DNA from: Robertmurraya sp.
GTDB lineage: Bacteria > Bacillota > Bacilli > Bacillales > Cytobacillaceae
Direction of reading: 5' to 3'
DNA length: 40,945 nt
NCBI GenBank assembly: GCA_025451895.1
Contig: JANWJP010000081.1
Coordinates: 1 to 40,945 of the forward strand
The notes under the pieces are model-generated. The model was not told where the DNA came from. It saw nothing but the letters and a program-made list of their open reading frames with translations, and searched no databases. The position numbers and the translations under genes were made by a program. Each line of letters begins with the position of its first letter. Within the stretch, counting starts at the first letter, position 1. Below, piece by piece: positions 5,881 through 18,137 of this stretch.

Positions 5881-5951
5881 TATTGGTGATTTTAATAGTA
5901 TTATTGGCAAACCTCGGGATATATGGGCGAAAATTTCGGTATATCAGCGAA
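5881..5951. repeat. Degenerate 20-bp-period repeats (TATCGGCGAA family)
   Basis: TATTGGTGAT (5881), TATTGGCAAA (5902), TATGGGCGAA (5922) and TATCAGCGAA (5942) recur at 21, 20 and 20 bases. They are decayed copies of the unit found as six tidy copies at 16791-16901. Confidence 0.6.
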
Positions 5952-15241: not shown

Positions 15242-15281
15242 TAGCCGAGAATTTTAGTACAGTTGAGAGGAGTAAAGTTAG
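15242..15281 (+). promoter_or_regulatory. Possible TRAP-like NAG-triplet leader overlapping the trpB ribosome binding site
   Basis: Read as RNA, triplets occur at 15242 (UAG), 15247 (GAG), 15255 (UAG), 15260 (CAG), 15265 (GAG), 15270 (GAG), 15275 (AAG) and 15279 (UAG), mostly with 2-base spacers. The TRAP protein of Bacilli binds such arrays, and at some genes the array covers the ribosome binding site. Part of the pattern could simply be the purine-rich ribosome binding site, so this is inference. Confidence 0.35.
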
Positions 15282-15283
15282 TG

Positions 15284-16450
15284 ATGCAAAGTGTGAGTGA
15301 GGTAAATAAAGGTTATTTTGGAGAATTTGGAGGAAGTTATGTTCCTGAGGAACTCCAAAAAGTATTGGATTATATTGAAGAAAATTTCCTGAAATACAAA
15401 GATGATCCGCAATTTATTGAAGAATATAAATATTATATGAAGGAATATGTAGGTCGGGAAACACCGTTAACCTTTGCCAAAAATCTTACTGAAAAACTGG
15501 GCGGGGCAAAAATCTATCTTAAAAGAGAAGATTTGAATCATACCGGAGCCCATAAGATTAATAATGTTGTCGGACAAATTTTATTGGCAAAAAGAATGGG
15601 CGCCAAAAGAATCATTGCTGAAACAGGCGCCGGACAGCATGGTGTAGCAACTGCAACAGCTTGTGCCATGTTCGGCATGGAATGTGTCATTTACATGGGA
15701 AAAGAAGATACTGAGCGCCAGGCACTGAATGTGTTCCGCATGGAATTGCTGGGTGCTAAGGTAGTTCCCGTCGATAAAGGCCAGGGCCGCCTGAAAGAAG
15801 CCGTTGATGAAGCTCTGAATGATTTAATTGCAAACTATAAAAATACCTTTTATCTAATCGGTTCAGCAGTAGGACCGCATCCATATCCGAGTATGGTAAA
15901 ACACTTCCAGGCAATTATCAGTGAAGAATCAAAACGGCAAATTCTTGAAAAGGAAGGCAAACTTCCAACAGCCGTTATTGCATGTGTCGGCGGCGGAAGC
16001 AACGCCATCGGTTCCTTTGCAAATTACATTGACGAAAAGGATGTCCGTTTAATCGGGGTTGAACCGGCAGAGGCACCTACACTGACTGAGGGAGTGCCGG
16101 CTGTTCTCCACGGTTATAAATGTTTCACTCTCCTTGATGAAAAAGGAGAACCAATGCCGACATATTCCATCGCTGCGGGCCTGGATTATCCCGGTGTCGG
16201 TCCGGAACACAGTTTCTTGAAAGACAGCGGGCGGGCAGAATACGTTACTGTTTCTGCCAAGGATGCGCTGGAAGCATTCCAAACTTTGAGCAAAACAGAA
16301 GGGATTATTCCTGCATTGGAAAGTTCCCATGCGGTTGCCCACGCTATTAAAATTGCGGGACAGATGTCCAAGGATGATATTTTGATCGTTAATGTGTCCG
16401 GACGCGGAGACAAGGATGTTGAACAAGTCTTTAAAATGTTTAATAAATAA
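15284..16450 (+). CDS. trpB: Tryptophan synthase beta chain (orphan gene)
   Basis: The PLP-dependent beta subunit condenses indole with L-serine to make tryptophan, normally in an alpha2-beta2 complex. Counting from the ATG at 15284, the PLP lysine is in HTGAHKINN (about residue 91) and the catalytic glutamate in ETGAGQHG (about residue 113), 22 residues apart as in Salmonella TrpB. The phosphate loop [10 protein letters not shown] and the C-terminal SGRGDKD are present. The length of 388 residues fits the TrpB1 type. A GTG at 15281 is an equally placed start; GAGAGGAG is the ribosome binding site. No trpA or other trp gene is adjacent, so it is either a displaced trp gene or a second indole-salvaging copy. 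Confidence 0.92.
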
Positions 16451-16490: not shown

Positions 16491-16790
16491 GATCCAATCC
16501 GGAAATCTGCCGGAAATATTCCGGACGTGGCGGACGGCTTGGGTTTTCGACCGGTCATAAGCGTATGTCCATTTTTTTAAAAAAAAAGACAAAATGTATG
16601 GCTGTGAGTCATTTATGATTATTTTTCGTTAATGAATGGTCAAAAACGGAAAAAATTTTGGGGATTTGGCGGGAGTGGGGGCTTAGAAGGCGGTGGAAGG
16701 GGATGAATGGGGCCGGAATTCCCTTGAAATCTGCTGATTTGGATATATTTGTATGTAACATGGGTGAGAGGGGAGTGACATAAATCAACA

Positions 16791-16901
16791 TATCGGCGAA
16801 AACCGGCGGGATATCGGCGAAATTTTGGATTTATCGGCGAATTTTTAAATATATCGGCGAAAATTGCGTTATATCGGCGAAAATTCAATTTTATCGGCGA
16901 A
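16791..16901. repeat. Six tandem TATCGGCGAA repeats with a 20-bp period
   Basis: The 10-base core TATCGGCGAA occurs without a mismatch at 16791, 16812, 16832, 16852, 16872 and 16892. The spacing is 21, then 20 four times. The 10 bases between cores vary in sequence and are mostly A/T. A decayed set of the same unit lies at 5881-5951. The period equals about two helical turns, so all cores face the same side of the DNA. The function is unknown. Confidence 0.9.
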
Positions 16902-16916: not shown

Positions 16917-16955
16917 AAAAAAGGGGCTCCCAAAATACCGGATGGACAGCCCCTT
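16917..16955 (-). terminator. Terminator for the metallophosphoesterase gene
   Basis: AAGGGGCT (16921-16928) pairs with AGCCCCTT (16948-16955). The A6 run at 16917-16922 provides the minus-strand T tract. Confidence 0.8.
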
Positions 16956-16984: not shown

Positions 16985-17701
16985 TTATTGACCTGCGTTT
17001 CTCAGCAAATTGATGACAAATTCTTTATTTGGATAATCGGAGTTTTTATACTGGCTGCATACTTTCTCGACATCAAAATCAACCCGCTCAATGGAAGTGC
17101 GGAAATTGCCGGAAGTAATTTCCACGATGGCATAAGATGCCTTAGCCATACCGTCAAACGGCAAACCGACACTGCCTGTGTTAATGACCACTTTTCCATT
17201 TATGTATCTGATATACGGGGTGTGGATATGGCCGTAAACGAATATTTTTTCGTCTCCTTTCATAAGCTTTTCCAACACAGTCTGATTATCGGCATGCGGT
17301 GGCACAATTTCAAATAAGCTGTCAGGAGTGGCATGGAAACCGGAAATATCCATGGATTCAATGGTTAATTTGTATGTTTCGGGCAGGTTCAATAAATAAT
17401 CAATGTCCTTTTTATCAAGTTTGGAGACGCACCAATCCCGTTCTTTATTCATGATTTCCAGGGCGTTATCGGGAACTTCGCCTTTTTTAATGCCTCTGAT
17501 TACCCACTCGTCTGCATTTCCTTTAATGACATCTGTCTCCAGAGAACGCACCAAATCAAGTGCTCTTTTTGGTTCGGGGCCGCGAAAACAAAGGTCGCCG
17601 AGGACAATTATTTTATCGACATCTTTTGCAGAGATATCCTTCAAGACTGCTTCCAATGCAACGGCATTTCCATGAATGTCGGAAATAAATGCATATTTCA
17701 T
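16985..17701 (-). CDS. Calcineurin-like metallophosphoesterase
   Basis: The 238-residue cytoplasmic protein is a small dimetal phosphoesterase of the YfcE/MJ0936-like group. Metal-ligand motifs are in order: D8 and H10 in SDIHGN, D36 in LGDLCFRGP, N62 in KGNADEW, a histidine in GFHATP, and GHIHTP near 176, followed by the characteristic NTGSVGLPFDG. The GNHE motif is replaced by GNAD, as is common in this subgroup. The ATG at 17701 follows a GAGGTGAT site; an upstream in-frame start lacks one. Relatives hydrolyse phosphodiesters in vitro; the natural substrate is unknown. It is transcribed alone towards trpB. Confidence 0.85.
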   Translation of the reverse strand: MKYAFISDIHGNAVALEAVLKDISAKDVDKIIVLGDLCFRGPEPKRALDLVRSLETDVIKGNADEWVIRGIKKGEVPDNALEIMNKERDWCVSKLDKKDIDYLLNLPETYKLTIESMDISGFHATPDSLFEIVPPHADNQTVLEKLMKGDEKIFVYGHIHTPYIRYINGKVVINTGSVGLPFDGMAKASYAIVEITSGNFRTSIERVDFDVEKVCSQYKNSDYPNKEFVINLLRNAGQ

Positions 17702-18137
17702 GCTTATCACCTCATATATTATTGGAATTATTTTACACGAACGGGGGTGTTTTTTCAAAAAGGAAGAACGGCTTACATTTATTTTTAGTAAAACATCTAT
17801 GAGTTCCAGCCTGCAACATAGAAAGAAAAAATTTCATGAAAATATTTTATGTAAATAAATAGAAAATTTATGAAAAAGGTCAGTTTCTATTTTTGTTTTA
17901 TTCCTTTATAATTTAAATTCAAAATATTCAGTAAATTATAGACGATTAAAAGGAGGTGAAAACTTAAAACGGAAATTTGGAGAAAAAGGTCGATGAACCA
18001 ATGAAATACGGCATGTCCTTATCTGTTTCTGGGGCTGTAATTGAACTGCATCCGAAATAACCGTTGCCGGATGAGAAACTGACTTTGTTGCCTGTTTCGA
18101 ATGATTTGCAAAGAGATTGAAAAGAGGGGGAGTTTTA
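17702..18137. other. Long leader region upstream of the alanine symporter
   Basis: This region lies between divergent genes. TATAAT at 17907-17912 is a possible -10. A very strong AAAAGGAGGTGA ribosome binding site lies at 17948-17959, but the GTG at 17956 inside it gives only three codons before a stop. The same frame then reopens as a 27-codon frame from TTG 17977 (ATG 18001) to 18060 without its own good site. No riboswitch I know is recognisable. The leader would be about 220 bases long. Confidence 0.5.

Follow-up and report, generated by a model that had tools for sequence, protein, structure and literature searches.

Six copies of a 10-base core, set close to two helical turns apart between two genes of Robertmurraya sp., raise the question of what kind of element this is and whether a protein acts on it. 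The window, by which we mean the whole stretch of DNA analysed (contig JANWJP010000081.1, 40,945 nucleotides), contains the array, a decayed relative of it and the neighbouring genes.

Anatomy of the array

The following features of the window are relevant here.

5881–5951, plus strand: decayed array copy, four units at steps of about 20 bp, two of the units one mismatch from the core
15263–16450, plus strand: PLP-enzyme gene (ORF, Pfam PF00291), probably trpB as read from its C-terminal sequence; context only
16775–16790, plus strand: 16-nt leader GTGACATAAATCAACA, abutting the first core and identical in all eight genomic copies
16791–16901, plus strand: six-unit array of exact core matches, with spacing and unit number as in seven other genomic copies
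16791–16800, 16812–16821, 16832–16841, 16852–16861, 16872–16881 and 16892–16901, plus strand: cores of the main array, all exact matches
16917–16953, minus strand: probable intrinsic terminator for the metallophosphoesterase gene (stem GGGGCT/AGCCCC, run of A on the plus strand), read from sequence
16985–17758, minus strand: metallophosphoesterase gene (ORF, Pfam PF12850), convergent with the left-hand gene; context only

The core, TATCGGCGAA, occurs exactly six times in the main array, with starts at 16791, 16812, 16832, 16852, 16872 and 16892. The initial annotation had described six exact cores at a 20-bp period; the number and positions of the cores stand, whereas the first step is 21 bp and only the other four are 20 bp. 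Allowing up to one mismatch, the window holds 13 matches to the core against 2.4 expected, a count reached in none of 100 shuffles. The array lies, as described, in a convergent intergenic setting between the PLP-enzyme and metallophosphoesterase genes, with the terminator of the minus-strand metallophosphoesterase gene directly beyond its 3′ end, and a similar terminator-like hairpin adjoins the end of several other genomic copies. The decayed set reported upstream of marR was likewise recovered: its four-unit chain, starting at 5881, reaches 29.8 bits, compared with at most −6.8 in 60 shuffled windows, and a MarR/MMPL gene pair lies downstream.

The array was correctly judged not to be a CRISPR. 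A CRISPR array combines repeats no shorter than about 21 bp with unique spacers that are at least about as long, and is accompanied by cas genes, whereas here a 10-bp core alternates with spacers of about 10 bp, the spacers stand in the same order at several loci, and cas families are absent among the recurring neighbours. A likeness of the core to the DnaA and Spo0A boxes was dropped, as the central bases differ.

Constraint on the cores

The genome examined is a draft of 3.23 Mb in 216 contigs. The genome-wide count that the initial annotation had proposed gave 50 exact cores, compared with 13 matches to the reversed pattern, and 28 core pairs spaced by 18–22 bp, compared with none. Eight arrays follow one plan, in which the leader GTGACATAAATCAACA precedes exactly six units. 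The arrays were located by exact core pairs and the six units then read without requiring a match; fully decayed copies are therefore under-counted. The cores of the eight copies contain seven mismatches in 480 positions. Between copies, the pairwise divergence is 2.8% in the cores and 37% in the spacers, a 13-fold difference that bears out the earlier remark on variable spacers, and spacer order is still recognisable between several of the eight. Conservation extends more weakly to the unit edges, with a T preceding the core and A/T following it; in relatives, the fifth position of the core is loose.

With its constant six units, its constant leader and its conserved cores among diverged spacers, the array is a constrained, defined dispersed element of about 130 bp rather than a satellite. 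These same properties, together with the adjacency to NERD-domain genes described below, already speak against a partnerless satellite produced passively by slippage, and we give that reading almost no credence, although slippage or unequal exchange does occur, since some arrays elsewhere consist of many near-identical units (up to 37 in L208 and about 19 in L257).

Distribution among relatives

A loose triple pattern, defined as TATCNGCNAA three times at 19–21 bp, was found in 67 of 194 genomes of the host family, including Neobacillus, Robertmurraya, Bacillus methanolicus and Evansella clarkii, and in none with the reversed control. Together with the eight six-unit copies in the genome, this establishes the dispersed intergenic repeat family that the initial annotation had offered as one possibility. 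Of 181 literature matches to the exact cores, the 20 listed include none that treats them as a repeat. As to a viral origin, which was rejected, four contigs in IMG/VR match the loose pattern, and none of the four has the leader. Arrays with the same core also occur outside the Bacilli, in a Clostridia MAG (L094) and a cyanobacterium MAG (L103); the first lies within a long ORF and the second on a short contig, so either may be coding sequence or contamination.

The arrays lie mostly near gene 3′ ends (57 arrays); as assigned by a simple ORF caller, 5 of the 57 lie between divergent genes and in 39 of the 57 the right-hand neighbour reads toward the array. The preference for the terminus that had been raised as a test finds no support in three related complete genomes (G071, G075 and G079), whose listed solo arrays are scarce far from both record ends, possibly the terminus half. 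In Evansella clarkii, arrays occur on both strands and show no clear pattern with respect to replication polarity. In many arrays of this species (L090–L109, L226), the final element is a forward core joined to an inverted one (TTATCGGCGANNCGCCGATAA); the resulting palindrome might serve as a dimer site.

Read-through from the right-hand neighbours would transcribe the arrays, which might then act after transcription as a small RNA or as an mRNA 3′ structure. Neither strand is predicted to fold better than its shuffles, however (z from −0.35 to 0.18), no Rfam match was found, and phasing at 20–21 bp has no obvious meaning for an RNA. An RNA element is thus a very improbable explanation.

A NERD-domain gene beside the arrays

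In a comparison of all ORFs near the arrays, no transposase, replication, partition or companion defence gene recurs, and a mobile element linked to a transposase was rejected for this reason. One gene family was distinguished by its distance to the arrays, a NERD-domain gene lying 3–50 bp away at six loci. Matches to the NERD-family profile are present in 179 of the 194 genomes. The converse search used a motif-free detector of 8-mers repeated at 18–23 bp, which made no detections in 353 kb of shuffles. All of the first 30 NERD loci have an array in their flanks, many with quite different cores; at one locus (L143) the gene is near a contig end and the array lies 200 bp upstream. These 30 loci ranked highest against a profile that was itself derived from array-linked genes. 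As a check on this bias, 40 NERD genes were taken from nine complete genomes selected without regard to arrays, six of which lack the original core pattern. An array is present in the 1-kb flanks of 36 of these 40 genes and in 3 of 20 regions 30 kb away, and two of the three control-region arrays carry the core of a NERD-linked array of the same genome.

The association is close. An array of at least four units lies within 200 bp of 95 of 107 full-length NERD genes, compared with 4 of 47 ordinary genes in the control regions, and among the remaining twelve genes, several have an array that is weaker or lies a little farther away. In families of the class outside the host family, 37 of 46 NERD genes have an array within 220 bp. 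Some NERD genes (L183, L185, L222, L229, L240, L243 and L321) have three to six successive arrays, in blocks every 100–280 bp.

The sole close match to the NERD profile in the genome of the window is a gene at the enolase locus; 30 bp downstream of this gene stand six TATCCGCGAA units. Its array has a motif, GGAGTGACGTA, which is related to the leader and stands at about the same distance as the leader; the array differs from that of the window in one loose base and in period, which counts against a pairing of the two. In the same genome, an array of this second type (TATCCGCGAA, 21 bp) is found at G000:C28:4739-4811. A second NERD protein of this genome (272 aa; G000:C104:1831-2178, L245) has no array nearby, and so the association is with the longer NERD type.

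The NERD protein and core specificity

The partner protein consists of a NERD domain (Pfam PF08378, 75.6 bits), a zinc ribbon and a helical C-terminus, and by profile it is a clear member of the NERD-domain proteins. The residues D80, E93 and K95, which form the D..ExK motif, are invariant in the aligned proteins and suggest that it is an active nuclease. The AlphaFold model is of moderate confidence (mean pLDDT 63), with the C-terminal segment modelled as helices. Its fold matches in the PDB are mostly nucleases of the PD-(D/E)xK type, none of them significant, and a sequence search returned no solved relative.

Paralogs within one genome each have their own core. Orthologous loci with conserved flanks can also differ in their cores, as at L149/L154/L177 and at L150 compared with L155/L160. 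Across 97 NERD–array pairs, with overall protein identity removed, core similarity correlates best with the last ~35 alignment columns (r = 0.16, z = 3.9, 0 of 500 permutations; best-window test, 0 of 500). The overlapping window before these columns gives p = 0.004, and columns 105–140 are marginal (p = 0.018, uncorrected). The permutations ignore phylogeny, and the covariation of the C-terminal segment with the core, which is weak, is therefore suggestive. The cooperative protein binding on one helical face proposed in the initial annotation receives indirect support only, from this covariation and from the constraint on cores relative to spacers.

Specificity that diversifies among paralogs might also be expected of a defence system, with NERD as a restriction-like nuclease and the arrays as self-marks or decoys, and one NERD member partially, if weakly, matches the MAD6 family of defence proteins. 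Against this, PADLOC gave no match to the NERD proteins above noise, the neighbours of the arrays include no recurrent companion defence gene, and the NERD genes are syntenic, unlike typical defence islands. We consider a defence role improbable.

Solo arrays and core switching

Solo arrays usually share their core with a NERD locus of the same genome, with clear exceptions. The two cores agree in E. clarkii, Robertmurraya siralis and five further genomes (G009, G016, G067, G111 and G196). In G068 and B. methanolicus no NERD gene was found with the core of the dispersed arrays, which counts against pairing, and in a set of three related genomes the cores agree in two but not in the third. The same solo array, with near-identical flanks and neighbours of the same size, is found in B. 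methanolicus and R. siralis (L061 and L087). As no NERD gene with the core of this shared site was found in B. methanolicus, a solo array might persist after its partner gene has gone.

One genus has dozens of copies of a solo element of ~145 bp, mostly with six units and a conserved 3′ hairpin. The array block at one orthologous site belongs as a whole to either the TATTGGCGA or the TATAGCGA type. Array identity is 74% within types and 59% between them, whereas that of the hairpin is 80% in both comparisons and the flanking genes are equally similar within and between types. The switching of cores at this fixed site looks like block replacement by recombination, and is the sole hint of something acting on the arrays.

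No empty insertion site was seen at the one site examined in one genus, where an array occupies the site in each of the 18 genomes in which it could be read; in three of the 18 the array is cut to three units. This bears on the proposal that NERD gene and array together form a hopping mobile element, with the solo arrays as its footprints. Many NERD genes are indeed flanked on both sides by arrays in the same orientation, as in Evansella clarkii. NERD loci nevertheless keep the same flanking genes between species, and the protein has no close homologue in 72,556 plasmids or in 50,697 phages, the latter giving one weak match. With no empty site seen either, we regard a hopping element as highly unlikely.

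The main rival explanation involves no cutting: NERD or another protein would bind the arrays so as to structure the DNA or insulate the ends of genes, with ordinary recombination spreading the copies. The phasing, constant on one DNA face, fits such an architectural or regulatory array, as do the avoidance of divergent promoters, the location mostly near gene 3′ ends and the residence of NERD genes at syntenic loci, and nucleoid binding has been proposed by Subirana and Messeguer (PMC8161180). The invariance of the catalytic residues in the aligned proteins and the switching of whole arrays, which suggests active recombination at them, argue against it. We judge this explanation unlikely, but one that carries real weight.

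Relation to known repeat systems

Tandem repeats of 20–21 nt in Bacillus, of 'constant length, variable sequence', were published in 2020–2021 without known function or partner (Subirana and Messeguer 2021, PMC8161180). Judged by sequence, the window array is a member of this class, which is defined by at least four units of constant 20–21 nt, variable sequence with a short conserved signal, and no coding of amino-acid repeats. It has six units at 20–21 bp, a constant core and variable spacers, and it is intergenic, with a period of 20 that is not a multiple of three. The two share unit length, non-coding character, several families per species and a short conserved signal per unit. In particular, the B. 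weihaiensis signal TCGCGG (PMC8161180) is the reverse complement of CCGCGA in window-type cores. The repeats in that account are species-specific, with no partner gene, leader or fixed unit number, whereas the core described here is common to several genera and is linked to NERD genes. What is new here is a candidate partner gene for these published repeats, the NERD gene. In the open-licence literature we found no paper tying NERD genes to repeats, and earlier notice is possible.

In REPtrons, which consist of REP sequences and TnpA-REP/RAYT, the gene is described as not mobile, and enzyme and repeat co-evolve (PMC8266576, PMC3116915). Here too, dispersed intergenic repeats also lie beside the gene of a dedicated DNA-processing enzyme. 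The enzyme is, however, a predicted nuclease of the NERD family (PF08378) rather than a relative of HuH (Y1) transposases, there are several paralogs per genome, and the repeats, rather than being palindromes that fold into hairpins, are direct, asymmetric and set in phased arrays; they show no folding signal, and in some species a hairpin stands at the array end only. In its proposed working the NERD/array pair resembles a REPtron, but as two defining features of that family differ, the enzyme superfamily and the palindromic repeat, it is not filed as one.

Plasmid iterons, centromere repeats and the TnsB site arrays of Tn7-like elements are asymmetric direct repeats at about two helical turns that are bound by a cognate protein. 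The arrays described here differ in being dispersed over the chromosome and in having no recurring replication, partition or transposase gene.

A possible two-part system

The reading that we favour, with rather modest confidence, is that the window array is a solo copy of a dispersed element belonging to a two-part system, in which a chromosomal NERD nuclease-like protein acts in trans to bind, cut and spread the arrays. We infer a REP/RAYT-like pair that binds on one DNA face, with the solo arrays as dispersed target copies. The trans partner would combine a PD-(D/E)xK-type nuclease domain, a C4 zinc ribbon and a helical C-terminal segment. Recognition of the ~10-bp core by the C-terminal segment, with NERD subunits oligomerising side by side along one face of the DNA, is the arrangement that agrees best with the array anatomy, the C-terminal covariation and the closeness of gene and array; the placement on one face follows from the spacing of the cores by two helical turns. 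A cognate array would be kept beside most NERD genes, and further copies would lie between genes, as in the window. The nuclease would cut at the arrays, and repair from another copy would spread or convert them, much as RAYT does for REP sequences but by a different chemistry. Such cutting and repair would explain both the switching of arrays and their spread.

The link to the NERD family makes the question of the 20–21-nt repeats testable. If the pairing is functional, single genomes contain several separate protein–site pairs whose specificity evolves fast at fixed loci, and these pairs would be useful for studying the co-evolution of DNA recognition and its targets. More tentatively, NERD proteins and phased arrays might form a general two-part system of the Bacilli, in which a sequence-specific nuclease would maintain, convert and disperse the arrays that it recognises, while its paralogs diverge in specificity. 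If true, this would explain the 20–21-nt repeat class, and the system would parallel REP/RAYT without common descent, with a nuclease as its driving enzyme.
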